Of a stretch of DNA of 64,000 nucleotides, positions 43,426 through 63,473 are shown in pieces. The DNA lies in contig OZ020585.1 in assembly GCA_963971535.1 (NCBI GenBank), positions 160,076,211-160,140,210 of the forward strand. The letters are read 5' to 3'. The notes beneath the pieces were generated by a model. That model ran no database searches. It was not told the DNA's origin and saw only the letters and a list, made by a program, of their open reading frames with translations. This DNA is from Notolepis coatsorum (taxonomy: Eukaryota > Chordata > Actinopteri > Aulopiformes > Paralepididae). Positions within the stretch are counted from its first letter, which is position 1. Every line of letters starts with the position of its first letter. A program made the translations under genes and the position numbers.

Positions 43426-43957
43426 GACAGGGACGCCAGGGATCAAGCGATCAACACAACGCCTCCTCAATCCTCATCCATATACCTTTGAGATATAATC
43501 CTTTTATGTTTTTTTTTTAAGTAATTTTTATTTGTGCTTTGTTTTAATTCCACACTCAAACCATTCCACAGATTCACTCCACAAACTGAAATACATATAC
43601 TCTTCATTGTTGAATGAACAGCCTGTTTCTTGAAGTTAGACTCTCCTCTAATTTGTAACCCCCCGTCTCTATCACACATTTTTTGGATGTTACCCGGGAG
43701 TGAATTGTTTCGTGCTTTAAACATGATTTGTGCAGTCTTAAATTCAGCCAGGTCCCTGAGTTTCATGGCATGTGATCTTAAAAACAGTGTGTTCCAGATA
43801 TCCTACTTTATTGATTCCTAATTGCTCTTTTTTGTAGTGTGCATAGTGTAGTGTTAACCCAAATCTCCACACAGTAGTTCAGATATGGTAGTATTAGTGA
43901 GCAATATAGAATGTACAGGGATTTATTCCCACAGATGAAAGTAACCTTCTGAGTCTG
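43426..43957 (-). mobile_element. LINE family C (minus), RT C-terminus joined to endonuclease end
   Basis: The minus strand reads QKVTFICG then NKSLYILYCSLILPYLNYCV, then LRDLAEFKTAQIMFKARNN, then GVNLWNGLSVELKQ. FICG is the endonuclease FxGDFN region. It passes directly into the RT C-terminal region, so the middle of ORF2 is deleted in this copy. The left side is broken by the Harbinger-like element and the right side by the CACTA element. Confidence 0.82.
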
Positions 43958-43984
43958 CACTGTAAAAATGTTCACCCTAAAGTT

Positions 43985-44450
43985 ACAATAAATTACTGGC
44001 AATATTTTGCATGACTTTTACAGTAAGATTCACAATAATTTACTGTGAATGGCTTCACAGCAATGTGTTGTACTTTCACAGTAATGGTAGTACAATACAT
44101 TGTTGTAATTTCACAACTTCATACTGTAAGAAATTACTGTGATATTACAATAAATTACTGGCAATATTTTGCATGACTTTTACAGTAAGATTCACAATAA
44201 TTTACTGTGAATGGCTTCACAGCAATGTGTTGTAATTTCACAGTAATGGTAGTACAATACATTGTTGTAATTTCACAACTTCATACTGTAAGAAATTACT
44301 GTGATATTACAATAAATTACTGGCAATATTTTGCATGACTTTTACAGTAAGATTCACAATAATTTACTGTGAATGGCTTCACAGCAATGTGTTGTAATGT
44401 CACAGTAATGGTAGTACAATACATTGTTGTAATTTCACAACTTCTAACAG
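43985..44450. repeat. 162-bp subterminal tandem repeat, three units
   Basis: ACAATAAATTACTGGCAATA starts at 43,985, 44,147 and 44,309. Units carry ACTGTGATATTACAATAAAT and many ACTGT/ACAGT words that echo the terminal CACTGTAAAAA. This is the left subterminal region of the CACTA element. Confidence 0.92.
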
Positions 44451-44830
44451 TAAGAAATTACTGTGATATCACATTATTCTGTTGTATATATATTACAACA
44501 ATGTATTGTGACTTCACAACATCAAATTGTAAGAAATTACTGTAATATCACATTATTTTGTTGTATATATATTACAACAATGTATTGTGACTTCACAACA
44601 TCAAATTGTAAGAAATTACTGTAATATCACATTATTTTGTTGTATATATATTACAACAATGTATTGTGACTTCACAACATCAAATTGTAAGAAATTACTG
44701 TAATATCACATTATTTTGTTGTATATATATTACAACAATGTATTGTGACTTCACAACATCAAATTGTAAGAAATTACTGTAATATCACATTATTTTGTTG
44801 TATATATATTACAACAATGTATTGTGTATT
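44451..44830. repeat. 79-bp subterminal tandem repeat, five units
   Basis: TAAGAAATTACTGTAATATC recurs at 44,451, 44,530, 44,609, 44,688 and 44,767, an exact 79-bp period. Each unit has the near-palindrome TTGTTGTATATATATTACAA. The units are close to identical, suggesting recent expansion. Confidence 0.95.
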
Positions 44831-45352
44831 TACAATAGCCTACATGTATTTTTGTAGTCCAGCTCCAGTACACTTCCTGAAGGTCACACTTTGGTTTCCT
44901 GTTGTGTTTAATCACGTCATCCTATTGTATCTTGACATGAAACTATTGTATGAGCTTCCTCCAGAAGTATACTGGAGCTGGGGACTATAGAGTTATGCAT
45001 GTCTATCATTGTAAATTGACTGTTATTTTGCCAAATTATATAATATAATAATTATTATTTTTCAATTATTTTGTTGGCAAGTCTTTTGCATTACTTTTCA
45101 GACTTGCCAACAAAATAATTGAATAATAATAATTATTATATTATATAATTTGGCAAAATAACAGTCAATTTACAATGGTATGCATAACTGTATAGTCCCC
45201 AGCTCCAGTATACTTCTGGAGGAAGCTCATACAATAGTTTCCTGTCAAATACTATTGGATGACGTGATTAATCATGACAGAAAACCAAAGTGTGAGCTTC
45301 TGCCAGGAAGTATACTGCGCTGGACTTCAAAAATGCACGTAGGCTATTGTAC
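44831..45352. repeat. Large palindrome, arms about 250 bp, spacer about 20 bp
   Basis: ACAATAGCCTACATGTATTT (44,832) mirrors the sequence ending AGGCTATTGT (45,350). CAAAATAATTGAATAATAAT (45,109) mirrors ATTATTATTTTTCAATTATT (45,052). The spacer is around TTTTGCATTACTTTTCAG. The arms are near-identical near the centre and diverge outward. It sits just inside the left subterminal arrays. Confidence 0.92.
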
Positions 45353-45382
45353 ATTAAAAACAACAGTCCAAACGCACAAATG

Positions 45383-45600
45383 AGGTAAGCCAGCATTTAT
45401 TGTCAAAAGACATAGAATTATTACAAATAATTACACGAGGTAAGCCGGCATTTATTGTCAAAAGACAGAATTATTACAAATAATTACATGAGGTAAGCCA
45501 GCATTTATTGTCAAAAGACAGAATTATTACAAATAATTACACGAGGTAAGCCGGCATTTATTGTCAAAAGACAGAATTATTACAAGTAATTATATACAAA
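45383..45600. repeat. About 54-bp tandem repeat
   Basis: GAGGTAAGCCAGCATTTATT followed by GTCAAAAGACAGAATTATTA recurs four times from 45,383. The last unit runs into the 332-bp array, whose units contain the same TTATTGTCAAAAGACAGAAT. Confidence 0.92.
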
Positions 45601-47914
45601 GAATTATATTCTTATTCTTGAAATGGTAAATGGCTGTTTTCTTTTTTACAATTTGTGCACATTTTACCCATAGGAAAATCCTGCTCGTTGTACAAGGATC
45701 GCAGAGAAAATTCAAAGGTACTCAGTTGCACAAGAGTTTCGGACAGAGAAACGCAATGGTTTGAAAGCTCGGCGTTGCTAATAAACATTTTAAATATTAT
45801 TTTATAAACTGTTGGTCAACACTGCTCAAAACGGCTTTAGCTGACTGATGCGCCTTGCACATCGAGCGTTTCGCCAGTTCTTCAGAGTTAATTATGGGAT
45901 TTTATTGTCAAAAGACAGAATTATATTACAAAGAATTATATTCTTATTCTTGAAATGTTAAATGGCTGTTTTCTTTCTTCTTTTATATACAATTTGTGCA
46001 CATTTTACCCATAGGAAAATCCCATATTAACTCTGAAGAACTGGTCCTCTGCGAAACGCTCGTTGTACAAGTATCGCAGAGAAAATTCAAAGGTACTCAC
46101 AGTTGCACGAGAGTTTCGAACAGAGAAATGCAATGGTTTGAAAGCTCGGCGTTGCTAATAAACATTTTAAATATTATTTTATAAACTGCTGGTCAACACT
46201 GCTCAAAACGGCAAAACTAAGACAAAGTAATCATATTCGTAAGTAAAATGGTAAATGGCTGCTTTTTTTTCTTCTTTTTTTACATATTTGTGCACATTTT
46301 ACCCATAGGAAAATCCCATATTAACTGTGAAGAACTGGTCCTCTGCAAAACGCTTGTTGTACAAGTATTGCAGAGAAAATTCAAAGGTACTCACAGTTGC
46401 ATGAGGGTTTCGGACAGAGAAACGCAATGGTTTGAAAGCTCGGCATTGCTAATAAACATTTTAAATATTATTTTATAAACTTCTGGTCAACACTGCTCAA
46501 AACGGCTTTAGCTGACTGATGCACCTTGTACGACGAGCATTTCGCCAGTTCTTCAGAGTTAATTATGGGATTTTATTGTCAAAAGACAGAATTATTACAA
46601 AGAATTATATTCTTATTCTTGAAATGGTAAATGGCTGTTTTCTTTTTTACAATTTGTGCACATTTTACCCATAGGAAAATCCCGCTCGTTGTACAAGTAT
46701 CGCAGAGAAAATTCAAAGGTACTCACAGTTGCATGAGGGTTTCAGACAGAGAAACGCAATGGTTTGAAAGCTCGGCATTGCTAATAAACATTTTAAATAT
46801 TATTTTATAAACTTCTGGTCAACACTGCTCAAAACGGCTTTAGCTGACTGATGCACCTTGTACGACGAGCGTTTCGCCAGTTCTTCAGAGTTAATTATGG
46901 GATTTTATTGTCAAAAGACAGAATTATTACAAAGAATTATATTCTTATTCTTGAAATGGTAAATGGCTGTTTTCTTTTTTACAATTTGTGCACATTTTAC
47001 CCATAGGAAAATCCCGCTCGTTGTACAAGTATCGCAGAGAAAATTCAAAGGTACTCACAGTTGCATGAGGGTTTCAGACAGAGAAACGCAATGGTTTGAA
47101 AGCTCGGCATTGCTAATAAACATTTTAAATATTATTTTATAAACTTCTGGTCAACACTGCTCAAAACGGCTTTAGCTGACTGATGCACCTTGTACGACGA
47201 GCGTTTCGCCAGTTCTTCAGAGTTAATTATGGGATTTTATTGTCAAAAGACAGAATTATTACAAAGAATTATATTCTTATTCTTGAAATGGTAAATGGCT
47301 GTTTTCTTTTTTACAATTTGTGCACATTTTACCCATAGGAAAATCCCGCTCGTTGTACAAGTATCGCAGAGAAAATTCAAAGGTACTCACAGTTGCATGA
47401 GGGTTTCAGACAGAGAAACGCAATGGTTTGAAAGCTCGGCATTGCTAATAAACATTTTAAATATTATTTTATAAACTTCTGGTCAACACTGCTCAAAACG
47501 GCTTTAGCTGACTGATGCACCTTGTATGACGAGCGTTTCGCCAGTTCTTCAGAGTTAATTATGGGATTTTATTGTCAAAAGACAGAATTATTACAAAGAA
47601 TTATATTACAAAGAATTATATTCTTATTCTTGAAATGGTAAATGCTGTTTTCTTTTTTACAATTTGTGCACATTTGACCCATAGGAAAATCCCATATTAA
47701 CTCTGAAGAACTGGTCCTCTGCGAAACGCTCGTTGTACAAGTATCACAGAGAAAATTCAAAGGTACACAGTTGCACGAGAGTTTCGTACAGAGAAACGCA
47801 ATGGTTTGAAAGCTCGGCGTTGCTAATAAACATTTTAAATATTATTTTATAAACTGCTGGTCAACACTGCTCAAAACGGCAAAACTAAGACAAAGTAATA
47901 ATATTCGTAAGTAA
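45601..47914. repeat. 332-bp satellite containing a SINE 3' end
   Basis: GAAATGGTAAATGGCTG-type starts occur at about 45,620, 45,952, 46,245, 46,621, 46,953, 47,285, 47,632 and 47,911. The 46,621-47,285 units are exactly 332 bp apart. Each unit contains GGTAAATGGCTG and CAATTTGTGCACATTTTACC, which is the reversed 3' part of the SINE seen at 16,244-16,502. The final unit runs into the rest of that SINE. An internal inverted pair, ACTCTGAAGAACTGG / CCAGTTCTTCAGAGT, is present in several units. Confidence 0.9.
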
Positions 47915-48100
47915 AATGGTAAATGGCTGTTTTTTTTCTTTTTTTTACAATTTGTGCACATTTTACCCATTCACACACCGACGGGAGCATGTAGGGGTTA
48001 AGTGTCTTGCTCAAGGACACATCGACACGCTGCCCGGGGAGGAGCGGGAATCTCCGGATTGCCAGACGACTGCTCTACCTCCCGAGCCACTGTCGCCATG
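47915..48100 (-). mobile_element. tRNA-derived SINE at the edge of the satellite
   Basis: The minus strand reads GGCGACAGTGGCTCGGGAGG (box A), TAGAGCAGTCGTCTGGCAAT, then a GAGATTCCCGC box B region with the box damaged, then CCTTGAGCAAGACACTTAAC. It is the same family as 16,244-16,502. Its 3' end is the segment amplified in the 332-bp array. Confidence 0.85.
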
Positions 48101-48151
48101 AAACTAGTACTTCCAGGTCTTACCCGAAAATGGAACTAATGAATACACTTT

Positions 48152-48760
48152 ATGCACTCACTCAAAAGAACAAAAGAGGCACTCAAAATAACAAAAGAGG
48201 CGCAGGGACGACAGGAGCATGACAATTGTCTTTGCAAACCATTCAAAGTCTATGAGCTTCCGAAGAAGGGTGTTCACGTCAGGGGACGACAGGAGAAGGA
48301 CGATTGTCTATACAGATGCAGACCATTCAAAGTCTATGAGCTTCCGAAGAAGGGTGTTCACGTCAGGGGACGACAGGAGAAGGACAATTGTCTTTGCAAA
48401 CCATTCAAAGTCTATGAGCTTCCGAAGAAGGGTGTTCACGTCAGGGGACGACAGGAGAAGGACAATTGTCTTTGCAGACCAAAGTTTATGAGCTTACTTA
48501 CGAAGAAGGGTGTTCACGTCAGGGGACGACAGGAGAAGGACGATTGTCTATGCAGATGCAGACCATTCAAAGTCTATGAGCTTACGAAAAAGGGTGGTCA
48601 CTTGAGGGTTGATGGCGCTTCGCTTCTTTGCCCTGGAGCCTTTCTCCGGGTTGATGCCCAAGAAGAACCTGTTAATAAGCAAAGATACGTTTCAGTTTTA
48701 AATAGACTCAGCATTTATCAAGGTGCTCACCTGTGTTTTTTCATGGTACCTCTAACATAA
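48152..48760 (+). CDS. Repeat ORF of 202 codons, doubtful gene
   Basis: A tandem array with GGACGACAGGAG at 48,206, 48,284, 48,368, 48,446 and 48,524 has spacings of 78, 84, 78 and 78 bp, all multiples of three. The frame stays open and repeats GRQEKDNCLCKPFKVYELP and KKGVHVR. It then continues about 50 codons beyond the repeats to a stop. No known domain, no signal peptide, and no splice context. Units of 78/84 bp could keep a frame by chance, and the gene lies antisense to the two element genes. Confidence 0.3.
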   Translation: MHSLKRTKEALKITKEAQGRQEHDNCLCKPFKVYELPKKGVHVRGRQEKDDCLYRCRPFKVYELPKKGVHVRGRQEKDNCLCKPFKVYELPKKGVHVRGRQEKDNCLCRPKFMSLLTKKGVHVRGRQEKDDCLCRCRPFKVYELTKKGGHLRVDGASLLCPGAFLRVDAQEEPVNKQRYVSVLNRLSIYQGAHLCFFMVPLT

Positions 48761-48986
48761 TGTTTACTCATCCGAATTTTGAAGCCATACTATAATGTGA
48801 ATTAAACCATTATGTCAATTTCTTAACAAGATAGCAGCAACATCAAGTGATGGTGTGGTCCCAATTCACATAGTTGGTTCCAGGCTTCATACTCAAAGCA
48901 TTTAATCTACTTTATGGCCTCTGTAGAAAGGCATGGACTTAATAGCCAGATAGTCTTTGCATGATAAGTCTTACTGATGACATTGA
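48761..48986. other. Unassigned stretch, possible 3' end of the SAMD3-like gene
   Basis: Non-repetitive A/T-rich sequence just downstream (minus sense) of the stop at 48,987-48,989. It would contain the 3' UTR. No clear AATAAA on the minus strand was identified with confidence. Confidence 0.4.
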
Positions 48987-51900
48987 TCATGTGTTCAGAG
49001 TGTTAAAATACCTTTGGATGAACTCAAGTGTGGATGATCCAACGGAAGGATACTCCAGGTTGAAGACATAGTAGCTGGTGAATAAAGCAGCTACCCCATG
49101 CAAAAATAATCATCACAACTTCTCCCTTGATGGATAGCATCCATCCAGAAGGCTGCATTGCGTCACCTGAAATGAACAGATACCCCGTCATGCGTTGTTG
49201 TGGATAGGTATACATTCCTGCAAGGACATGACACAGAACTAAGGCTGTCTTAAATACTTCAAAGCTTCGTTCGATGGGCATGGGATTTGAATATGAAAAT
49301 AAAATTTGATTATTAAAAAGAAAAAGAAAAATGCATATATATATATATATTTTTGCCAAATCAACTCTGCCTCTCTTACAACAAGCAATGCTGTCTCTTA
49401 TTTAAGATGAGGTCGCACTGACAGATTTGTGTTCATTGTGCTGCTTTTATAAAGCCTCAAATGACGGCTTACAATATTTCATGAAAGCAAAGTGTTTTGT
49501 TTGTCTAAGATTTAAAAAGGTTTCAACTTTACAGCACTGACAAAGTTGAACATGAGACATGCCAGCTCAGGATATTATTTATAAGCGTCATATGTGTGCC
49601 GTATCACAAACTGCCTTCGGTCAGATTTTCCCCCTCGATGCAAAGGAACACAAGCTCATCCCTGAACATTATTACCTTGAATTATCAAACAGGGGGTGCT
49701 TGGGAGTGCTGCAGTATTCACATCAGCAACAGTGGCACAGGTCTGCAACAAAGTAACACACAATAGCAGATTTAACATTATGAAAGGATGAAGATAAGCT
49801 AATCCACGCACTACAGCTCACCACACATCAGCTCGGCCCATTTGGAGCAACTTGGGGGTTAAGTGACTTGCTCAAGGACACTTCCGACATGCGGACAGTC
49901 AGAGCCAGGATTCGAACCACCAACCCTACGGTCGATGAACGACCATCTCTACCAACTGAGCTTCAGTCGCCCCTAATGTAATCACTCGCATTTCAAATAT
50001 TTTAATATTTAAATAAACGTACATCAACTTCGAGCAGTAGTTTCTCCGTAGGCTCCTTGAAGTACACCATAAGGAGCAGGACGATGCAGGCACTGATCTC
50101 CGAAACCTCTGGATGATATCTGGCCAGAACATCCCTGATCTTCGGGTTGTCCAGTTTCTGGCAGAACTGCAGGATGGTCCGTCCTCGATGACACAGGGCA
50201 TCTTTGATCTTTTGAAGGACATCGGTGTCTGTCAGGAGGCCAAAGTGGGAGAAAAGCCCCGTCTGAGAGAAGAGAAAAGGCCATTCTTCTTTGACCGCCA
50301 CCATCGTTGGTGGAGGCATTTTATTCAAGTAACGCCGCAGGATGACGTAGGTCCTCTCCATCAGAAGTTCTGCTCTCGCTGTCCCACCCATCCCTTCCTC
50401 TGTGTACAGACATACAAACCAAGTAACAACAATTAGATTTGATGTTGCCACATCTGGGAAATTGAGTGGCAAACCTTTAATTGTATTACTCATTCTGAAT
50501 ATTAAAGTGGCCTTTTTGCTTAATGTGGGATATTTATTCATGGTGTCAATTCACCAAAAGTAAAGTAGATTGCATGCCTGAGTAGATGTTCCGCAGATCC
50601 CTTTTCAAAGCCGCCATGGTTTCCTCTGTCTCCCCGTCCGGTAAGCTTGCTGGGCCCCACCTCACACACCTAGGGATAGGAAGGAATCATAGGCAACCTC
50701 TTAGTAGAATACATAAAAAAAGAAAAATTATAATATATATATTTTTTTATCATTCTTTCCAAAAGAAAAAAGGCCTCTAACGCTAATGGCACGCATACCA
50801 GAGGCTAACTGCCTACGAAAACAGGCACAGAAGCACTGAAAGAGGATTTCACCCATCTAATGAACACACTAGACTAGACAAATATCAAGATGTATCCATC
50901 AGTGGACCAATTGCATGCTTTTGCAGAGGACAAGAAGCCTTCAGACATTAAGCACCCCCCACAGCCCAAATGGAATGATAAAAAAAATATATATATAAAT
51001 ATATATATATATTCTACTTTTTATTTTATTTTTGTCGACTAACTGCACATTTTGGCCAATCATAGTCGACTATCCAAATCCTTAGTCAGGGACAGCCCTA
51101 GAAATTATATTAAAAAAAAATCTACACATAATTTAAACATTCAATCCAAATAACCTAAGTTAGTCGAGCATTGGCAGTGCCACTTTAACCCCTAATTGCT
51201 GCGAGCGTGAATGGAGAGGACACTGGCGCCGTTTGTTTTGCCACCCCTACCCGTATTGGTCAACAGGACCTCTCGTCAGCCTGGACTCTCCTGCCACGCC
51301 AGTGGGCCGTCTTTCCTCTCTGCCTCTGCGGCGTCTAGCCAGAGTGTTGTTCCTGCTTTTATACTCCACTCTTGTTTTTACTTGTTGGAGAAGAGAGTGG
51401 CATCCGTCTCCAACCATTTCACCTCGCCTGCTAATGTCAGCAAAGGTGTCAGGATGGCTCCTGACAATTGTTCGGACGATACTGAGGCACGTGGTTCTGG
51501 TTGGGTTGTGCTCGTGCTCCATCATCTGATCCACCAAAGCGTTCACAAAGGCCCTTCTCTCATCTGGCTTTGGTCTCTGTTCTTTTTCCACTGCACGTTG
51601 AATGGCTGTTGACATCCGGTTCCAGTTGACACAAAAGTCTACATGCCATGCGCTGCCAGGCTGTGAAGAGTTTGGAGTGCTTGGGGGGCTGCACAACAGA
51701 GATTGCATAGAGGTGTTCGGAGAGGACAGAGTGTTCACAGAGCTCGTTGTTGGGGAACTTGAAGCAATTGGATGTGTTGGGGAACTTGAAGCAATTGGAT
51801 GGGGAGGGAGCACCTCCATATTAAGGGTTACTAACCCTAGAAGGGACAAAAACAGTTATGCCAATGTTCCAAGGGCATAGTTCCAAGTGTCACGCAAGTC

Positions 51901-52099
51901 TAAATATGAATTTACCTTTCTTAAGACCATCCATCAGCTTTCGACACTGGATTGGTTTGAGGTGTCGGACCAGATCCACCCTCTCCATTAAGGCCAGATC
52001 TTCGACACTCTCCACTCCAAGATCCTCAAGTAGGGTGGTCAGTAAGTCATCAGGGAGGCCCGGTAAATATGACCAAACTGCTTCCTTTATATCTTCCAT
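48987..52099 (-). CDS. SAMD3-like SAM-domain protein, spliced, CACTA element gene 2
   Basis: Candidate exons are 52,099-51,916 (SAM domain, from MEDIKEAVWSYLPGLPDD to QCRKLMDGLKK), 51,836-51,251 (Ser/Pro/Thr linker, then NALVDQMMEHEHNPTR, SIVRTIVRSHPDTF and a basic ARRRRGREERR), 50,669-50,578 (VRWGPASLPDG), 50,399-50,023 (ILRRYLNKMPPPTM, EEWPFLFSQTGLFSHF) and about 49,217-48,987 (SYYVFNLEYP, TLEFIQR). Phases of the first four agree exactly. Exon 3 would need a GC donor (CAG|GCATGC). The last exon has an apparent frameshift between GEVVM and SYYVFNLEYP and an uncertain acceptor, so the copy may be damaged or an exon is missed. The motif set and order match fish proteins named sterile alpha motif domain-containing 3-like, which are multi-copy. 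The role is unknown; SAM domains often oligomerise. Confidence 0.8.
49815..49972 (-). mobile_element. tRNA-derived SINE in an intron of the SAMD3-like gene
   Basis: The minus strand has GGGGCGACTGAAGCTCAGTT (box A), GGTTGGTGGTTCGAATCCTG (box B), and the body CCTTGAGCAAGTCACTTAAC. It lies between candidate exons 4 and 5, in the same orientation as the gene. Confidence 0.85.
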
Positions 52100-52265
52100 T
52101 ACCTAGTCTCATTGATTAGGGTCAATCATGAATCAGTTTGTGCATATTCCCTACTTGTCTGTTTGCAGTGCACTATATGCGGTTAACTGCCAACATGTGC
52201 TCGCTATACAATCAACAATACAAAATCAACTATCTTAAGGTTATTTGATATCCTGCTCCACTTAC

Positions 52266-52313
52266 GTCTGTCCTCACGTCTGTCATATCCTCCCTTTCCT
52301 GTTTAAACTGCTC
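52266..52313 (-). other. Candidate 48-bp mini-exon between the two element genes
   Basis: On the minus strand CATTCTTTTCCAG precedes GAGCAGTTTAAACAGG, and the stretch ends ACAGAC|GTAAGT, a strong donor. It reads EQFKQEREDMTDVRTD with no stop. Joined to the SAM exon through the acceptor GAGACTAG (before GTAATGGAAG) it stays in frame as TD-V-MEDIKEA. It overlaps the last codons of the upstream transposase frame, so it could be a first coding exon (from its own ATG) or a link between the two genes. Confidence 0.4.
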
Positions 52314-54963
52314 CTGGAAAAGAATGGTGGAGCGCAATAAGCATCTGATCGTGCACGTTGTATGCTGGAAGAGGATAGTAGTCCAGTAAATCTTTGTGCT
52401 TAATGCACACGTAATCCTCTTGGGCCACTCCTAAGTCACAGTACACACCCATGTCAATCAACTTCACACAAATGTGTTTCTCTGAGACAAAGTGGACAGA
52501 GTTTTGGGCAACAATGACCAGCATAATCTTCCCCATGTGAAGTCCTTCATCACTGTTCCCAAACAAGATGAACATCCCCTTTCTGTAGTCTGTGCCTTTG
52601 ACTGTAACATTGTTACAAGCCACTGCAGACTGAGACTCAAATTGACAACTGGCTACAGATGCCCTGATCTTGTTGTTGTAATCATCCAAATAAAAGGCAG
52701 TCCCCTTCTCTACCTGTATAACAGGAGGAAACAAGTTTCCCGCACTCAGGTAGGCCTGGAGGAGTTGGTGTCTCTCTGCTAGTGTTTTGCACAGATTTTT
52801 GAAATTGTGCAATTTTCTGGCACACTGTTTGAAAAAAGTGTGTTTGCTTTCAAACCGCAGAGTCCACAGGCGAATAAGTGGGCCAAAGTGGATGATTAGA
52901 TCTGGATAATGGCCAATATAGTGATGCTTTGGCCTCAGGGGGGCATTGGGGAAGAGCCTTTTCCTGTTGCATATGTACTCCTCTGTGATGACTTTCAGAT
53001 ATGCTACCTGGCCTTCTGTAATGACTGGTGCACAGATAAGCTCAACCATCTCTCTCAGCTGCAAAATGAGCTGCCACACCTCATTGTCACAGGGATCTTT
53101 AATCCTGCCACCCACCAAGAGAGGGAGTAATCTAAGGAAACACCAGTTTTGAACTGCATGCCCACTTAGTTTGTCACTGCTGGGAGAGAGGTCTGCTGGT
53201 TTGTCCCTACCATCGTTCCCTTCATATCGGAACTTGTTTTTGCACCGATTTAACTGCAGGTAAGTAAAATGATTCTCCTGGACTAAATGGCGAATATATA
53301 AAGGAAGGTCATAAGCCATGACTCCCTCAAATAAATCATGGCCTAGACATGGTGGGAGGCCAGGCTGGCAAACATGGAAATGAGAAAGCTGGTTGAAAGG
53401 AGAGTCAAACTTGATACCGCATACAGAGTCTGTGGTACTAGTTTCCAGGTCTTGCAAATTACTTGTGTATGATTGGACCGTTCTTGTGGCACCACACAAC
53501 ACTGGATTCTTCACAAAATCCTCTCTCTGTACCTGACAGTAGCGACAAAAATATTTAGATCGACTGAAGTTTTCTAAAAATCCCCCAATAGAATGGGATC
53601 CTAAGTTGTCTCCTGCAATGGCAACCAAAGAGCCCTTTAGTACAGTGCCATCAGATATGACTACACCTCTCTCCTCCAGGATTTTGAGGTCCTCAATCAG
53701 ATGTGCAAAAACCTTTTTTAGCCCAAAATACTTAAAGTCCTGCTCCCTACATAAGAGAACAAGTTGCATTTGATCTATAGAAGATCTATTGTGAGGCAAG
53801 ATGTCAGTCAGGGTTAGGTAAACAGCTAAGACCTTGTGCTTTTTCTTCCCTGAGCCCAGTGGATTAACAACCTCGAAGGCATCTTGGTACAGTATCAAAC
53901 CAAGTGAGGAAGGGTCAGCTTTCAACATTGGATTACTTTGAAATCCTTCTCCATCCTTGACATCCTGATAGACAGCATCAGTAGATTGCTGCAAACGTGT
54001 CATGTTATACTGTTCTCGTAGAGACTCGTTTTTGAACAGTGTCACCAATGTCTCATGTATAGGTACATACTGAGCAAAGCATTCTTTGTCATTTTCATCA
54101 TTGCCCAAGAGCAAAGGCACGGGATGAACATGGTTGAAACACTCTTTAAAAGCAGACTTCCTATTTGTATCTGTACTGAGTCTTCCCTTGTTAAAAAGTG
54201 TGAGTAGATCATCTCTGTTCACTTCATCAACCATGCTGCTTATAGTGGCCTGAGGGATTCCAAGTTTCTTCAATTTCTCACTCAGAACGTTAAGTGTATG
54301 AGACAGGCCAAGTTCATGAGCAATTTGAAAGTCCTCAATAATGGTTTGTATGGTGCTTGCCGGTAAGAGTAGCTTAGATTGCAATTTCAAATAGAAAAGT
54401 GTAAGGTTATGTAAAAAAAGGGTTTCGTCCACAGCTAATGGCACTTCTGGTTCATCATGTTCACCAGCAGCTTCTGAATACGTCTGACTGGGTTCTGGCA
54501 ATGACTCTGTAGACTTGTCTAGTACCAAGTCATCTAAAACTGAATCCTTGTGTTTCCTGGAAATATGTGAAGCAAAAGTCATTACGTTTGTGAACCTGCA
54601 ATCACAACCTCTAAATGGACATGGCGATTCCATTCCTCCCTTTATGTGTGTCTTCAAATGCTTGATAAGAGAGGCTAAAGTGTCACACTTAAATGCACAA
54701 GCCTCAAGCACACATTTCAAGGATGTGTCAGGTGGTAGAGCTGATCTAGGAGGTCTAGGCGGCTGACCAGCTTGCAGGTAGCACCTATGCAGCCTATATA
54801 TATGAGATCTCAGTGCTGCATGTTTTCTGAACCTCTGTGAGCAGTCAGGTATCCCGCACTGATAAAGATAATTGGGGCCGTTACTGTGGAGCTGCGCATG
54901 CTGGACAAAGGTATGCACACTCTCAGACACATGCTGACATCGAATATATTTACAGTGGAACAT
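52303..54963 (-). CDS. C2H2 zinc-finger transposase-like protein, CACTA element gene 1
   Basis: An intact 886-residue frame. The N-terminus has four C2H2 fingers: C4/C9/H22/H26, C36/C41/H54/H59, C84/C89/H102/H106 and C115/C120/H133/H138, all C-x4-C-x12-H. An acidic linker and a helical middle follow. The core has DAFEVVNPLG (D361), VAIAGDNLGSHSIGGF (D452), a CxxC (473-476), CLGHDLFEG (539-547), KPKHHYIGHYPDL-like sequence near 678-689 and RFESKHTFFKQCARKL (E705). D361, D452 and E705 are my candidates for a DDE triad. The pattern matches multi-copy uncharacterised fish proteins. Its position in the centre of a CACTG-ended element supports a transposase role in terminal recognition and cutting. 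The start is the first ATG, six bases before finger 1. It looks whole, so the element may be or recently was active. Confidence 0.85.
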   Translation of the reverse strand: MFHCKYIRCQHVSESVHTFVQHAQLHSNGPNYLYQCGIPDCSQRFRKHAALRSHIYRLHRCYLQAGQPPRPPRSALPPDTSLKCVLEACAFKCDTLASLIKHLKTHIKGGMESPCPFRGCDCRFTNVMTFASHISRKHKDSVLDDLVLDKSTESLPEPSQTYSEAAGEHDEPEVPLAVDETLFLHNLTLFYLKLQSKLLLPASTIQTIIEDFQIAHELGLSHTLNVLSEKLKKLGIPQATISSMVDEVNRDDLLTLFNKGRLSTDTNRKSAFKECFNHVHPVPLLLGNDENDKECFAQYVPIHETLVTLFKNESLREQYNMTRLQQSTDAVYQDVKDGEGFQSNPMLKADPSSLGLILYQDAFEVVNPLGSGKKKHKVLAVYLTLTDILPHNRSSIDQMQLVLLCREQDFKYFGLKKVFAHLIEDLKILEERGVVISDGTVLKGSLVAIAGDNLGSHSIGGFLENFSRSKYFCRYCQVQREDFVKNPVLCGATRTVQSYTSNLQDLETSTTDSVCGIKFDSPFNQLSHFHVCQPGLPPCLGHDLFEGVMAYDLPLYIRHLVQENHFTYLQLNRCKNKFRYEGNDGRDKPADLSPSSDKLSGHAVQNWCFLRLLPLLVGGRIKDPCDNEVWQLILQLREMVELICAPVITEGQVAYLKVITEEYICNRKRLFPNAPLRPKHHYIGHYPDLIIHFGPLIRLWTLRFESKHTFFKQCARKLHNFKNLCKTLAERHQLLQAYLSAGNLFPPVIQVEKGTAFYLDDYNNKIRASVASCQFESQSAVACNNVTVKGTDYRKGMFILFGNSDEGLHMGKIMLVIVAQNSVHFVSEKHICVKLIDMGVYCDLGVAQEDYVCIKHKDLLDYYPLPAYNVHDQMLIALHHSFPGAV

Positions 54964-55149
54964 TGTTGTGCGTGCTATAGTTACCTACCCAATCATTACA
55001 ACTGCCTCACACTGAACACTGGTTAGCCTGGCTGCCTCACTGAACAAGATGCCACTGAACAGGATACTGTATGTTAAAGACCTCTCTGATGACCTAGAAA
55101 AAAGGAAACCAGAGAAAGGAGAGATTACAGTTTGCATGCAGATTATGAA
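54964..55149. other. Upstream region of the transposase gene
   Basis: A 186-bp stretch between the transposase start and the 253-bp array. It should hold the 5' UTR and perhaps part of the promoter. No TATA box or known site can be called with confidence. Confidence 0.4.
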
Positions 55150-57015
55150 CGTATACTATAGGCTAATCTCAGGTGTACTGCACAGGAAACAAATAGTCTA
55201 TAAACTACGATCTGTGTTGCATATAGGCCTACCTATACAACCAAGAAGCAATCCGTGCATGGATCTGGGGAGACGTCAGTGCAGATTACTGTCCTGTACG
55301 CCTTGTCGGCCGGAACGATTCAGGCAGGCAATCAGTTGGCAGGCCCTAGGACAAGGGAGGGAGGCAAGAGGAAAGAAAAAAAACACAGGGAACGACGCAT
55401 AAATTCATGTCAAACAGTACTGCATGAGGTGATTAATCTCAGGTGTACTGCACAGGAAACAAATATAGTCTATAAACTACGATCTGTGTTGCATATAGGC
55501 CTACCTATACAACCAAGAAGCAATCCGTGCATGGATCTGGGGAGACGTCAGTGCAGATTACTGTCCTGTACGCCTTGTCGGCCGGAAAGATTCAGGCATA
55601 GGCAATCAGTAGGCAGGCCCTAGGACAGAAAAAAAACACAGGGAACGACGCATAAATTCATGTCAAACAGTACTGCATGAGGTGATTAATCTCAGGTGTA
55701 CTGCACAGGAAACAAATATAGTCTATAAACTACGATCTGTGTTGCATATAGGCCTACCTATACAACCAAGAAGCAATCCGTGCATGGATCTGGGGAGACG
55801 TCAGTGCAGATTACTGTCTTGTACGCCTTGTCGGCCGGAAAGATTCAGGCATAGGCAATCAGTAGGCAGGCCCTAGGACAGAAAAAAAACACAGGGAACA
55901 ACGCATAAATTCATGTCAAACAGTACTGCATGAGGTGATTAATCTCAGGTGTACTGCACAGGAAACAAATATAGTCTATAAACTATGATCTGTGTTGCAT
56001 ATAGGCCTACCTATACAACCAAGAAGCAATCCGTGCATGGATCTGGGGAGACGTCAGTGCAGATTACTGTCCTGTACGCCTTGTCGGCCGGAAAGATTCA
56101 GGCATAGGCAATCAGTAGGCAGGCCCTAGGACAGAAAAAAAACACAGGGAACGACGCATAAATTCATGTCAAACAGTACTGCATGAGGTGATTAATCTCA
56201 GGTGTACTGCACAGGAAACAAATATAGTCTATAAACTACGATCTGTGTTGCATATAGGCCTACCTATACAACCAAGAAGCAATCCGTGCATGGATCTGGG
56301 GAGACGTCAGTGCAGATTACTGTCCTGTACGCCTTGTCGGCCGGAAAGATTCAGGCATAGGCAATCAGTAGGCAGGCCCTAGGACAGAAAAAAAACACAG
56401 GGAACGACGCATAAATTCATGTCAAACAGTACTGCATGAGGTGATTAATCTCAGGTGTACTGCACAGGAAACAAATATAGTCTATAAACTATGATCTGTG
56501 TTGCATATAGGCCTACCTATACAACCAAGAAGCAATCCGTGCATGGATCTGGGGAGACGTCAGTGCAGATTACTGTCCTGTACGCCTTGTCGGCCGGAAA
56601 GATTCAGGCATAGGCAATCAGTAGGCAGGCCCTAGGACAGAAAAAAAACACAGGGAACGACGCATAAATTCATGTCAAACAGTACTGCATGAGGTGATTA
56701 ATCTCAGGTGTACTGCACAGGAAACAAATATAGTCTATAAACTACGATCTGTGTTGCATATAGGCCTACCTATACAACCAAGAAGCAATCCGTGCATGGA
56801 TCTGGGGAGACGTCAGTGCAGATTACTGTCCTGTACGCCTTGTCGGCCGGAAAGATTCAGGCATAGGCAATCAGTAGGCAGGCCCTAGGACAAGGGAGGG
56901 AGGCAAGAGGAAAGAAAAAAAACACAGGGAACGACGCATAAATTCATGTCAAACAGTACTGCATGAGGTGATTAATCTCAGGTGTACTGCACAGGAAACA
57001 AATAGTCTATAAATT
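55150..57015. repeat. 253-bp tandem repeat, seven full units plus a partial
   Basis: TAATCTCAGGTGTACTGCAC recurs at 55,164, 55,434, 55,687, 55,940, 56,193, 56,446, 56,699 and 56,973. Inner spacings are exactly 253 bp. The first and last units are 270 and 274 bp because they keep AAGGGAGGGAGGCAAGAGG, which all inner units lack. Units are nearly identical. The repeated 64-codon frames are by-products. The array lies directly upstream of the transposase gene and may act as its control region (inference). Confidence 0.95.
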
Positions 57016-58211
57016 AGTATTGTTTGTCTAGCAGTGTCGAGCTTGAGTGTTATACTCCGAGTACATACTGTAGTATAGACAGCATAGTTGGTGGTAGTAT
57101 AGACATGGTAGCATAATAGTAAAATTCAGTAAGACAGTTATTATTAGTTAAAATTCTGATATTGAAGAAGTTTTGGTTGATAAAGTGGGCAGTTTATCCT
57201 GTGCTGAAAAGTCTCCATTCCAATAGAGAGAGTATATATTTTAGTGTTTATTTGATTGATTTGGCCTTTTATTTATTACGTTTCCACAGTTATTTCCTCA
57301 TACTTTATTAACATTTTGTACATAATACAAGTTCATGTTAAAATGATGACACAAAAAGCCAGACCGAGGGCTTGTTTCATAAACAAACTGAACTTTCTTT
57401 TGCCTGCCTACTGTATTTGTTTGGTGGAAACCTGATCATAAAGTAAAGTAAAAAAAAAAAAAAAAAAAGTAGTGTGCTATTTTTGTAGTGTAGCTTGCTA
57501 CATTTATCTGGGGATAGCTTCCATTGTAGTTGAGCTATATTTAATCGAGAGTAACTAGTGTAGCTTACTACATTTTCCAAGTAGCTTGCCCATCACTGGC
57601 TAAATGCTGCATGTAGCTAGTTAGCTGAACTGAAGCTATATAGGTAGCCAGGTAGCTAAATGGCTGGCTATACTATAGCTCCAGTTCAGAACAACACTTT
57701 TTCACTGGTAGTTTGTGGAAATGAACCAACTTTCCCCTCTTTCACACGGTAAAATTAGTTTGAACAGCCAGGAGCAATATAAAAAAAAAACACAGTGGTC
57801 CCGTTGTTTGGTAAGCAACGTTGCATTACCCAACAGAGGTCAGACATAGCTAACAGCTAACATTAGCAGCAGGCACACATAACGTGTAAAAACGCATAAC
57901 CATGTAAAAAACGAACACAGCACTACTCCGCTGGCGTTTGCAATCGAAATCATAGATACAGAATAATATCCACCATCGACTTTATCATGCACTATATACT
58001 CACGTTTTATTGTCGATTAACGATGCAGAGATACAGCACACGCTGATACAACAATGGAGGAAGGTGCAGGTATTCTGGGAGGCAAGGTACAGGTGTAGTG
58101 CATTCTGGGAGGCGCCCGCCCAGGAAGCTGGTGTGTGTGCAGGCAGCCTAGACAAGTCTCAACATGTCTCCTAATCATGCATTATATAGTGGCCCCCAAT
58201 ACGCAGGTGCA
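57016..58211. other. Unassigned stretch with a hAT-like end
   Basis: 57,460-57,597 contains TAGTGTGCTATTTTTGTAGT, GTAGCTTGCTACATTT and a terminus-like AGTAGCTTGCCCATCACTG, a known fish hAT end type in reverse, but no partner was found. The remainder (GCTAACA-rich, then GCATTCTGGGAGGC twice near 58,070-58,110) has no gene. Confidence 0.45.
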
Positions 58212-58221
58212 GAACGGGTAC

Positions 58222-58261
<40 letters not shown>

Positions 58262-59240
58262 AACTTTATTAACAGATTGCAGAATGGGTACAATACAGTA
58301 CAGCTCAATACACACAATTGTTAAGGGGATGCAGACCAGAGAAAGACTTTCGTCTTGTTTACATCAGGGTCCCCCATAACCTTTCAATTCATCAGGACAT
58401 ACATCGTCATCATCATTTATTTATTCGTACATGGAATTACCACAGTCCAACAGTACATATAATTCACCAAATACCATGGCCGAAAGGAACAGGAAGAAGA
58501 AAAAATCTTCTACACCTGCCCTTACACACACACAACACACCAATAGACTTATTGTGTAAAACAAACAGAATATGCATTTTGCAAAAATGGAAACATCAAC
58601 ACAACCAAATTAAATCAACATAAATAAACCCATTTTGTGTATCTATCAGCAAACTACATATTTCGGTTCATTCATTTACACACACACACACACACACATA
58701 CATGACATACAGACAGTACTGCTACATCTATACATTTATGAAACCGTACATTAGGTGGGGTGGGGTGGGGGGGGGCTGTACATTGGAGATGGTTGGGTGG
58801 GTGGGGTGGGGGGGTTGGGTAGGTTGGGTATAGGAGGGGTGGGTGGACACTGTACAACTGTATACAAGCACATTGGAATATTGACAAAACCATGTTTGGT
58901 AATTTACTGTACATTGGAGGGGGTTGGGTTAGGACATTTACAGGGGCCAGTTTCGAATTGCAGTCTCCCGTATAGGTGTTCTTTGAGAGTGGTTTTGAAA
59001 GTGGGTAGTGATTCACATTCCTTTACAGCTTTGGGTAGGGCGTTCCACATTGATCTGGCATAATTGCGAAACATGTTTAGTCCCTGATTGAGCCGAATCT
59101 GGGTACCAGGCCCATTGCATGTTGATGTACTCTGTCGTCTCTAAGCCATCCTAGGTTGTCAAAGTGGGCAGGGGTGAGGTGGGTTCTAGGAGTAAGGTCA
59201 AGCATGTAGTCTGACCAGTTTGTTTTGAGATGTTTGTGTA
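58212..59240 (-). mobile_element. L2-like LINE family A, minus copy inside the CACTA element
   Basis: It starts with a (TTGA)n tail, then AAAACTTTATTAACAGATTG and the GGATGCAGACCAGAGAAAGA block, then a G-rich UTR strand (58,757-58,850) and ORF2 C-terminal sequence in reverse (TTCCACATTGATCTGGCATA). A 290-bp foreign stretch at about 58,390-58,675 interrupts it. Inserted after the CACTA element arrived, or carried by it. Confidence 0.85.
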
Positions 59241-59592
59241 GCAGGGTGGATTATCCCTATGAACGTTCACCAGGTAGGGGGAACGCAGCATGCAGATCTG
59301 AGTCCAACTGAATCCCTGACTTTAGTGCAGGAGTAGAGTGGAGCTTTAGCAGAGTGGTGGATGGGGCCTATAGGATTTACTAACCTAGGGGTAGTGAGCT
59401 GGTCCTTCTTGCCCTCCAGGGCGACTCGCAGTAATTCCCCACACACCCACACTTCTCCTAATACTACCCGCACCCTCCCACACCTGGTGGCAGTAGTGAT
59501 AGATGATATACTTTCTCCCCAAAGCAGTACCTTTCCTTGCTGATGAGCAGAGACCTGTCCCAATGATATAGGCTCCCCTGTTAGGGAAGTTT
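59241..59592. other. Unassigned 350-bp stretch
   Basis: Mixed-composition sequence with no repeat, frame or RNA gene I can support. The minus-strand frame of 98 codons here has no recognisable features. Confidence 0.35.
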
Positions 59593-59850
59593 AGGCTGCA
59601 GAGGACTATGATGGTCCAGTTCTACACTGCCATCATCCAGTCCATCCTCACCCTCTCCATCATCACCTGGTTCCCTGCAGCCACGGTCAGGGACAAGGCT
59701 GCAGCGGGTGATACGATCAGCGGAGAGTGTGATCGGCTGCCCCCTTCCCTCCCTCAAGTCCCTACATTCCTCCAGGGCCTTGAGGAGGGCGAGGAAGATC
59801 ATGGCAGACCCCGCCCACCCGGGTCACGACCTCTTCACCATGCTTTTCAC
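59593..59850 (+). mobile_element. LINE fragment (fourth family), ORF2 C-terminus
   Basis: The frame reads MVQFYTAIIQSILTLSIITW and FPAATVRDK. After one shift it continues LQRVIRSAESVIGCPLPSLK, SSRALRRARKIMADPAHPGH and DLFTML. This is the conserved C-terminal block of fish L2/Rex-like ORF2, distinct from families A-C. The minisatellite begins straight after it. Confidence 0.85.
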
Positions 59851-60880
59851 CCTAGCAACCACCTAGAAACACCCTAGCAACCACATATAACACCCTAGCA
59901 ACCACCTAGAAACACCCTAGCAACCACTTATAACACCCTAGCAACCACCTAGAAACACCCTAGCAACCACATATAACACCCTAGCAACCACCTAGAAACA
60001 CCCTAGCAACCACTTATAACACCCTAGCAACCACCTAGAAACAACCTAGCAACCATATATAACACCCTAGCAACCACCTAGAAACACCCTAGCAACCACT
60101 TATAACACCCTAGCAACCACCTAGAAACACCCTAGCAACCACTTATAACACCATAGCAACCACCTAGAAACACCCTAGCAACCACTTATAACACCCTAGC
60201 AACCACCTAGAAACACCCTAGCAACCACTTATAACACCCTAGCAACCACCTAGAAACACCCTAGCAACCACCCATAACACCCTAGCAACCACCTAGAAAC
60301 ACCCTAGCAACCACCTAGAAACACCCTAGCAACCACTTATAACATCCTAGCAACCACCTAGAAACACCCTAGCAACCACCCATAACACCCTAGCAACCAC
60401 CTAGAAACACCCTAGCAACCACTTATAACACCCTAGCAACCATAGAAACACCCTAGCAACCACTTATAACACCCTAGCAACCACCTAGAAACAACCTAGC
60501 AACCATATATAACACCCTAGCAACCACCTAGAAACACCCTAGCAACCACTTATAACACCCTAGCAACCACCTAGAAACACCCTAGCAACCACTTATAACA
60601 CCATAGCAACCACCTAGAAACACCCTAGCAACCACTTATAACACCCTAGCAACCACCTAGAAACACCCTAGCAACCACTTATAACACCCTAGCAACCACC
60701 TAGAAACACCCTAGCAACCACCCATAACACCCTAGCAACCACCTAGAAACACCCTAGCAACCACCTAGAAACACCCTAGCAACCACTTATAACACCCTAG
60801 CAACCACCTAGAAACACCCTAGCAACCACCCATAACAGCAACCACCTAGAAACACCCTAGCAACCACTTATAACACCTTA
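59838..60880. repeat. 43-bp minisatellite of alternating 22- and 21-mers
   Basis: CACCCTAGCAACCACCTAGA and CACCCTAGCAACCACTTATA alternate for about 1.04 kb, roughly 24 pairs. Variants (CATATATAA, CCCATAA, ACAACC) recur in the same order in the two halves, which indicates higher-order duplication of about 430 bp. Confidence 0.95.
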
Positions 60881-63245
60881 TTGTGAAATAAGAATAATAT
60901 AATGTGATATGTTGATATGCTATTGTGAGATTACAACATCTGATGTGATATGACAGAGAAAGACTTTTGTCTTGTTTTTTTTAATAAAATTACAATATAT
61001 TATTGTGAAATAATAAATAAATTATGTGAAATATTCATATGCTACTGTGAGATAAAAAAATGTGATGTGATATTACAGAGGATTTTGATTGCAATATTTT
61101 ATTGTGAAATAATAAATAAATTATGTGAAATATTCATATGCTACTGTGAGATTACAACATCTGATGTGATATTACAGAGGATTTTGATTGCGGTATCTTA
61201 TTGTGAAATAAGAATAATATAATGTGATATGTTGATATGCTATTGTGAGATTACAACATCTGATGTGATATTACAGAGAAAGACTTTTGTCTTGTTTTGT
61301 ATAAAATTACAATATTCTATTGTGAAATAAGAATAATATAATGTGATATGTTGATATGCTACTGTGAGATTACAACATCTGATGTGATATTACAGAGGAT
61401 TTTGATTGCAATATTTTATTGTGAAATAATAAATAAATTATGTGAAATATTCATATGCTACTGTGAGATTACAACATCTGATGTGATATTACAGAGGATT
61501 TTGATTGCGGTATCTTATTGTGAAATAAGAATAATATAATGTGATATGTTGAGCTATTGTGAGATTACAACATCTGATGTGATATTACAGAGAAAGACTT
61601 TCATCTTGTTTTGTATAAAATTACAATATTTTATTGTGAAATAAGAATAATATAATGTGATAAATTGATATGCTATTGTGAGATTACAACATCTGATGTG
61701 ATATTACAGAGAAACACTTTCGTCTTGTTTTGTATAAAATTACAATATCTTATTGTGAAATAAGAATAATATAATGTGATATGTTGATATGCTACTGTGA
61801 GATTACAACATCTGATGTGATATTACAGAGGATTTTGATTGCAATATTTTATTGTGAAATAATAAATAAATTATGTGAAATATTCATATGCTACTGTGAG
61901 ATTACAACATCTGATGTGATATTACAGAGGATTTTGATTGCGGTATCTTATTGTGAAATAAGAATAATATAATGTGATATGTTGATATGCTATTGTGAGA
62001 TTACAACATCTGATGTGATATTACAGAGAAAGACTTTTGTCTTGTTTTGTATAAAATTACAATATTTGATTGTGAAATAAGAATAATATAATGTGATAAA
62101 TTGATATGCTATTGTGAGATTACAACATCTGATGTGATATTACAGAGAAACACTTTCATCTTGTTTTGTATAAAATTACAATATTTTATTGTGAAATAAG
62201 AATAATATAATGTGATAAATTGATATGCTATTGTGAGATTACAACATCTGATGTGATATTACAGAGAAAGACTTTCATCTTGTTTTGTATAAAATTACAA
62301 TATTTTATTGTGAAATAAGAATAATATAATGTGATAAATTGATATGCTATTGTGAGATTACAACATCTGATGTGATATTACAGAGAAACACTTTCGTCTT
62401 GTTTTGTATGAAATTACAATATCTTATTGTGAAATAAGAATAATATAATGTGATATGTTGATATGCTACTGTGAGATTACAACATCTGATGTGATATTAC
62501 AGAGGATTTTGATTGCAATATTTTATTGTGAAATAATAAATAAATTATGTGAAATATTCATATGCTACTGTGAGATTACAACATCTGATGTGATATTACA
62601 GAGGATTTTGATTGCGGTATCTTATTGTGAAATAAGAATAATATAATGTGATATGTTGATATGCTATTGTGAGATTACAACATCTGATGTGATATTACAG
62701 AGAAAGACTTTCGTCTTGTTTTGTATAAAATTACAATATTTGATTGTGAAATAAGAATAATATAATGTGATAAATTGATATGCTATTGTGAGATTACAAC
62801 ATCTGATGTGATATTACAGAGAAACACTTTCATCTTGTTTTGTATAAAATTGCAATATCTTATTGTGAAATAAGAATAATATAATGTGATATGTTGATAT
62901 GCTACTGTGAGATTACAACATCTGATGTGATATTACAGAGGATTTTGATTGCAATATTTTATTGTGAAATAATAAATAAATTATGTGAAATATTCATATG
63001 CTACTGTGATATTACAACATCTGATGTGATATTACAGAGGATTTTGATTGCGGTATCTTATTGTGAAATAAGAATAATATAATGTGATATGTTGGTATGC
63101 TATTGTGAGATTACAACATCTGATGTGATATTACAGAGGATTTTGATTGCGGTATTTTATTGTGAAATAAGAATAATATAATGTGAAATCAAAAGATACT
63201 GTCTTTTTTACATGTATTTGTTGGGATATTACAGGAGGCCTTAAT
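60881..63245. repeat. Right subterminal array of the CACTA element
   Basis: Units of about 107-119 bp carry ATTGTGAAATAAGAATAATA, GTGAGATTACAACATCTGAT and GTGATATTACAGAG. Two unit types alternate, one with AAAGACTTTCGTCTTG and one with GGATTTTGATTGC. Larger blocks repeat at 61,348, 61,781, 62,455 and 62,891, giving 433- and 436-bp higher-order periods. TGTGATATTACA and TTACTGT words are shared with the left array. Confidence 0.93.
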
Positions 63246-63311
63246 TACAATATGTTACTGTAAGATAATACTGTTAAATGTTGTGAAATGCTGGTTACTT
63301 TTTACAGTGTG

Positions 63312-63473
63312 GGCAAATAACACCTCTATGCAGTCCTTGAATGCTTCAATGCTGGAATCTGGAGCTCTGTATACACAACTGACAATCACGTTTCTTTGTT
63401 TTTCCATGCAGATCTCTACCGTCATACAATCCATCATACAATGTATCAAGTGAAAAATGTATTTTTATTTTTA
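63312..63473 (-). mobile_element. LINE family C (minus), endonuclease piece and 5' end
   Basis: The minus strand reads MMDCMTVEICMEKQRNVIV, SCVYRAPDSSIEAFKDCI and EVLFA, an APE-type LINE endonuclease segment (the VYRAP motif is typical). It is the upstream neighbour of QTQKVTFICG at the left side of the CACTA element. It ends at TTTGCTCACACAAT (63,474-63,487), the second copy of the LINE C TSD, so the LINE was 5'-truncated on insertion. Confidence 0.85.

Follow-up and report, generated by a model that had tools for sequence, protein, structure and literature searches.

A complete two-gene CACTA-like transposon carrying a transposase gene and a SAM-like gene in the genome of Notolepis coatsorum

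Introduction

Do a transposase-like gene and a neighbouring SAM-domain gene belong to one mobile element, where does that element begin and end, and what might its second protein do? The question is raised by a 64,000-nucleotide stretch of the fish Notolepis coatsorum (assembly GCA_963971535.1, contig OZ020585.1, forward-strand positions 160,076,211 to 160,140,210; hereafter the window, whose numbering is used throughout), in which an earlier note had proposed a large CACTA transposon hidden inside a long interspersed nuclear element (LINE). We found a complete two-gene CACTA-like element of 19,352 bp at 43958..63309, very probably a cut-and-paste DNA transposon, young, autonomous and present in many copies, that belongs to the CACTA/EnSpm-Mirage-Chapaev-Transib (CMCT) clade and has both genes on one strand. 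The analyses below demonstrate its boundaries, its 2-bp target duplication and empty site, the family of copies, the constancy of the gene pair and the predicted transposase fold.

Results

Boundaries and insertion site

The limits of the element were placed as follows.

43958..63309: two-gene, CACTA-like element (ends, TG duplication, empty site, paired ends across the genome)
43956..43957: left target site duplication, TG (flank reading)
63310..63311: right target site duplication, TG (flank reading)
43958..43968, + strand: left terminal inverted repeat, CACTGTAAAAA (genome search with the end 19-mer)
63299..63309, - strand: right terminal inverted repeat, CACTGTAAAAA (genome search with the end 29-mer)
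43828..43957, - strand: flanking LINE-like repeat, 3' part of its reading frame
63312..63441, - strand: flanking LINE-like repeat, 5' part of its reading frame

The terminal inverted repeat is 11 bp long, and the only two exact matches to it on either strand of the window are those at 43958-43968 (+) and 63299-63309 (-). When one mismatch was allowed, the window held 7 matches against 2.8 expected, a number reached by 4 of 100 shuffles, so the 11-mer by itself is weak proof. The left flank of the element ends in ...GAGTCTG and the right flank starts with TGGGCAAATAA, which places a TG directly outside each end; both the inverted ends and the TG duplication described in the earlier note were thus recovered.

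When the flanks were joined with one TG, the element and the other TG being removed, the reading frame ran continuously over the junction, in agreement with the restored frame that the note had reported. A 173-nt query of the joined flanks returned 332 candidates, the best 40 of which all span the junction uninterrupted at 93-95% identity; the flanking repeat is therefore dispersed in at least 40 copies of this identity. Six junction-spanning copies were aligned. All six are free of any insertion there; each departs from the window at the second base of the duplicated dinucleotide, and one also at the next base. The empty site seen here, in all 40 scored repeat copies, is paralogous and not the orthologous one that the note had regarded as decisive.

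The flanking repeat is probably a LINE. We take the joined peptide to resemble LINE endonuclease and reverse-transcriptase tails, and the repeat itself to be, presumably, a LINE of the L2/Rex1 type with an internal deletion. The identification of the host repeat as a LINE, made in the note, is thus probable only; as a LINE the repeat would be without its middle, and a Pfam search of the 92-aa joined peptide gave zero matches. Repeats nested in repeats are common in the window.

Copy family in the genome

We searched the 3.42-Gb assembly that holds the window, using reversed patterns as controls. The left-end 19-mer had 37 exact matches (control 0), a left-end 30-mer had 176 matches with up to 3 mismatches (control 0), and the right-end 29-mer had 280 under the same limit (control 0). 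Positions were listed for 100 of the 176 left ends and for 100 of the 280 right ends, the latter all mismatch-free, so variation at the two ends is not comparable from these lists. For 56 of the 70 left ends listed on eight contigs, the list of right ends holds a correctly oriented partner 16.3-34.5 kb away; since two right ends are each shared by two left ends, these 56 pairs include at most 54 distinct right ends. The left ends are not uniform in sequence; some variants, for instance, have a longer run of T following CACTGTAAAA.

Thirteen elements were inspected, namely the window element, nine paired elements that were fetched, and the junctions of three more; 11 of the 13 have a perfect 2-bp duplication of TA or TG. 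Several copies with the same ends and a short target duplication, for which the note had asked 2-3 bp as a check, are accordingly present, the duplication here being 2 bp. SAM exons were found in 9/9 fetched paired elements and transposase sequence in 8/9, with order and strand constant, and 24 of the 56 end pairs enclose one of 51 scored transposases.

These 51 transposase matches, the best of 2,489 candidates, all cover residues 1-886, and 50 are free of stops; the best 150 of 4,721 SAM exon-2 candidates include 146 that are open. Only best candidates were scored in each case, and these open fractions are not representative of the whole family. Because copies are near-identical and open, we infer that the element is young and autonomous.

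Two unusual arrangements were seen. Two transposase matches, both full-length, and three matches to SAM exon 2 lie about 7.8 kb apart in a 32.8-kb copy (G000:C1:76348517-76381345, junctions L001 and L030), an arrangement suggestive of internal tandem duplication of the gene pair. Two elements of opposite orientation adjoin each other back to back at L018-L021 (G000:C8:180424212-180460438), with 346 bp between them.

The transposase gene and its protein

The transposase gene is a single open frame of 886 codons from its ATG, bearing out the full-length transposase-like gene of the note.

52306..54963, - strand: transposase, 886 aa, intact (open reading frame)
Residues about 1-135: C2H2 fingers
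Residues about 180-747: RAG1-like DDE core
Residues 748-876: possible BAH-like domain

In the transposase alignment, D361, D452, C473, C476, H680, H681, H685 and E705 are invariant in 70/70 sequences. D361, D452 and E705 are the probable catalytic triad, an assignment made from spacing and the secondary structure of the model rather than by a residue-by-residue overlay. The CMCT clade is described as sharing a DDE triad with C(2)C and H(3-4)H motifs between the second D and the E (PMC12730594), and the invariant residues fit this pattern, with C473-x2-C476 and H680/H681..H685 lying between the second D and the E. The predicted fold matched RAG1 best in Foldseek, followed by Transib; the matches shown include no EnSpm transposase, so the fold cannot discriminate within the clade.

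Relatives of the transposase made up 437 of 7,991 scored candidates at E <= 1e-3, and the nearest among the 120 listed, from Nothobranchius furzeri, is 78% identical. The protein P0048 scored 12 bits against PF02992 (Transposase_21), where the cut-off is 28.6. An NCBIfam search gave no relevant match, and a scan of viral contigs with the transposase alignment gave zero matches.

The SAM gene and its protein

The SAM gene starts at its own ATG about 200 bp past the transposase stop, with both genes on the - strand, and comprises about seven exons from 52099 down to 48557.

51916..52099, - strand: exon 1, SAM-like domain (tblastn with P0121, splice model)
51251..51836, - strand: exon 2 (splice model, tblastn, genome copies)
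50578..50669, - strand: exon 3, GC splice donor (splice model, tblastn)
50023..50399, - strand: exon 4 (splice model, tblastn)
49676..49742, - strand: exon 5 (splice model, tblastn)
49012..49166, - strand: exon 6, limits by eye, with a frameshift deletion in the window copy (tblastn)
48557..48664, - strand: last exon, approximate limits (tblastn)

The multi-exon SAM-domain gene of the note thus stands as to its roughly seven exons, but the window copy is frameshifted in exon 6. The GC donor of exon 3 is identical in 9/9 other fetched copies. We found 79 relatives of the protein, the nearest of which, from Trematomus, is 74% identical and aligns with the window gene exon by exon along most of its length; names given to homologues in the sources include si:dkey-15h8.17 and SAM domain containing protein 3 (P0147). 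A PDB profile search with the SAM protein alignment returned no notable match, and Foldseek with the SAM protein model returned zero matches at E <= 0.001.

Constancy of the gene pair

SAM exon 2 lies 456-471 bp downstream of the transposase on the same strand in 49/51 scored copies, and at exactly 468 bp in 47 of them. On eight contigs, with mismatch-free ends, a right end lies within 30 kb of the transposase in the proper orientation in 32 of 35 cases and in the wrong orientation in none; on eight contigs, SAM exon 2 has a right end within 40 kb in 83/100 cases, with 3 cases in the wrong orientation. Conversely, a listed SAM exon 2 lies inward of 83 of 99 right ends, at no more than 40 kb. 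When the right ends were shifted by 1 to 5 Mb, each of five trials gave 0 associations with SAM exon 2. The same two genes in the same order, another check named in the note, were therefore found both here and in 8/9 fetched copies, in which one end pair encloses both; the two protein types, which the note was not aware of as described partners, are here encoded together in one element.

The pairing was also seen in fish gene models, where a transposase piece is followed by the SAM protein in 7 of 217 proteins; the seven come from six species: Coilia grayii, Leuciscus chuanchicus (2), Amphiprion percula, Dissostichus eleginoides, Melanotaenia boesemani and Anabarilius grahami. The transposase piece spans 38 to 749 aligned residues at 51 to 86% identity, and four of the seven models hold only 38 to 83 such residues.

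Subterminal arrays and other internal repeats

Both ends of the element carry tandem arrays containing a palindromic 12-mer, TGTRATATYACA.

43983..44826: left subterminal tandem repeats, 162- and 79-bp units, with the 12-mer (repeat and motif scan)
60868..63289: right subterminal tandem repeats, 99-, 119- and 238-bp units, with the 12-mer (repeat and motif scan)

The left 880 bp hold 7 copies of the 12-mer and the right 2,450 bp hold 21, copies within one array being mutually non-independent; the 16-kb middle of the element and the 44.6 kb of the window outside it hold 0 each. The nine other copies show the same two clusters, with 5 to 9 occurrences in the 3 kb next to the left end and 7 to 26 in the 6 kb next to the right end, and the middle is free of the motif in 8/9, a count for which two of the nine copies were scanned minus about 1 kb of the middle.

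Further repeats lie inside the element.

44828..45354: large inverted repeat, 527 bp, on the inner side of the left subterminal array, with ungapped arms of at most 86 nt at 95%
48205..48608: 78-bp tandem repeat derived from the final coding part of the SAM gene (- strand) (tandem-repeat scan and tblastn)
55164..57016: 253-bp tandem repeat, upstream of the transposase
59848..60880: 43-bp minisatellite

In addition, the stretch 58222-59104 is similar to 31.0-33.1 kb and to further places in the window, and is probably a nested smaller repeat.

Discussion

Taken together, these results point to a single transposon with two genes, and several observations weigh against that interpretation or against its autonomy. 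Among the listed left ends, 14/70 have no partner among the right ends listed (100 of 280); a listed SAM exon 2 is found within 30 kb on the inner side of only 21 of the 37 exact left ends, and for 17 of 100 SAM exons on eight contigs the list contains no right end. Two of the 13 inspected elements have no matching duplication (TG/TA; CA/TG), and one of the nine other copies has 5 matches to the 12-mer in its middle. The paired copy C8:172683467 has no transposase match, two of 51 transposases have no SAM exon 2 among the best 150 of 4,721, and of the 8 fetched copies that carry a transposase, three have it interrupted or incomplete. Stops occur in the SAM coding sequence of 3/9 fetched copies and in the transposase of 2/8, and the small deletion that frameshifts exon 6 in the window is absent from 9/9 other fetched copies. 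The window transposase has no match to PF02992, and some fish gene models link the SAM protein to unrelated sequences. Finally, changes among copies show no purifying selection, with 34 nonsynonymous to 5 synonymous changes in the transposase (neutral ratio about 3.0) and 25 to 6 in the SAM gene (neutral ratio about 2.8); this is expected if copies decay after insertion, and yields no support either.

Gene models also join the SAM protein to a KDZ protein (P0181), a Harbinger-like protein (P0217), a reverse transcriptase (P0177), BRI3BP (P0135), RFX-labelled proteins (P0201, P0203, P0208) and a C2H2 protein (P0206). The partners other than CACTA may be gene-model joins, and those in P0201, P0206, P0208 and P0135 could reflect either domestication or gene-model error. 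We set these partners aside because the CACTA partner recurs, in seven models and in 49/51 scored genomic copies.

With two genes in one transposon, a division of labour can be sketched. The zinc fingers of the transposase would bind the element ends, its RAG1-like DDE site would cut, and insertion would take place at TA or TG. The SAM-like protein would act as a dedicated partner, which is the least certain step; by analogy with TnpA of maize Spm (PMC1636069), it may link the palindromic 12-mers clustered at the two ends or act against silencing. A bolder version, which we offer tentatively and consider rather improbable, casts the SAM-like protein as a second protein without which transposition cannot proceed, the animal equivalent of TnpA and a parallel to RAG2 in function. 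It would polymerise on the 12-mer arrays to pair ends 16-34 kb apart, and the BAH-like tail would tie the RAG1-like enzyme to a chromatin mark. If that were true, the fish genes joined to the SAM protein would be domesticated transposon parts.

Two alternatives concern the second gene, and both are possible if somewhat doubtful. The SAM gene might be passenger cargo, a host gene captured by one element, carried along with it in this lineage and having no part in transposition; the missing purifying selection among genome copies fits this, as do the window copy, which lost the SAM frame yet kept its transposase, and the host-gene style of the name given to homologue P0147. Against it stand the pair in six fish species at 51 to 86% transposase identity, which makes the pair older than the present burst, though four of the seven models hold only 38 to 83 transposase residues; the 146 open exon-2 copies among the best 150 of 4,721; and the exon-by-exon match of the Trematomus protein at 74% identity. 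The two genes might also form one transcription unit, from which alternative splicing or read-through would produce the transposase and a second protein, as with tnpD and tnpA of Spm. The shared strand, the near-constant 468-bp spacing to exon 2 and the models from six species that fuse transposase pieces to the SAM protein agree with a single unit, whereas the transposase has its own stop codon and the SAM gene its own ATG about 200 bp later.

A further alternative concerns the enzyme, which might belong to another superfamily (KDZ/Zisupton, or the RAG-like/Transib lineage proper) instead of CACTA/EnSpm. We regard this as unlikely: the Foldseek ranking of RAG1 and then Transib and the silence of PF02992 favour it, but the C(2)C and H(3-4)H motif is common to the whole clade, and Transib is not known to have fingers or subterminal arrays. 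Against it also stand the CACTG ends with a 2-bp target duplication, as in the animal element SmTRC1, and the 8-bp duplication of Zisupton (PMC12730594). That two unrelated mobile elements adjoin by chance is hardly credible, frequent as nested repeats are in the window, given 49/51 copies at nearly a single spacing and a single end pair enclosing both genes in 8/9 fetched copies.

The two-gene transposon has consequences beyond this locus. Unnamed multicopy fish proteins, including those that sources label si:dkey-15h8.17 or SAM domain containing protein 3, are likely mobile-element parts. The element is apparently a recent animal member of the clade of RAG, with at least 50 stop-free transposase copies, and such copies make the role of the second transposon protein directly testable.

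Comparison with known systems

We assign the element to the CMCT clade and file it as CACTA-like rather than EnSpm proper, since PF02992 gave no match; the label CACTA used in the note therefore holds at the level of the clade. It has CACTG..CAGTG ends of the 5'-CA..TG-3' type, a target duplication within the 2-5 bp range of the clade, and a predicted RNase H-like core related to RAG1/Transib. The 2-bp duplication differs from the 3 bp of fungal EnSpm and from the 8 bp of KDZ/Zisupton (PMC12730594).

RAG1/RAG2, ProtoRAG (BbRAGL) and Transib duplicate 5 bp of target, and Transib is not known to have zinc fingers or subterminal arrays; the present element differs from this group in duplication length and zinc fingers, and no RAG2-like partner was identified in it. 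Maize En/Spm resembles it in having short CACTA-type ends and subterminal repeats, but has a 3-bp duplication and a TnpA unrelated to the SAM-like protein. Both encode two element proteins, in maize the transposase TnpD and TnpA, but En/Spm is a plant element with one alternatively spliced unit (PMC1636069).

CACTA elements usually have 1-2 open reading frames (ORFs), and enlarged EnSpm elements of the red alga Chondrus crispus reach 16-20 kb with extra genes, 4-5 ORFs in all (PMC6431247). The "very large" size given in the note for an animal DNA transposon has to be set against these published elements, and neither two genes nor large size is new in kind. Neither the transposase-SAM pair nor the possible BAH-like tail of the transposase was found in the literature searched, mostly non-subscription papers, with Repbase and Dfam outside its scope.

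SmTRC1 of Schistosoma mansoni, an animal CACTA element, differs in its cloned copy of about 4.7 kb, its CCC ends and its 54-bp terminal inverted repeats; its extra proteins have no detectable relatives, and no SAM-like protein appears in the available portion of its description (PMC1636069). It resembles the present element in its 2-bp direct repeats, reported for 7/14 copies, in its two tandem ORFs, carried there on one transcript, and in that SmTRC1-like sequences have been reported from a fish, Danio rerio (PMC1636069).

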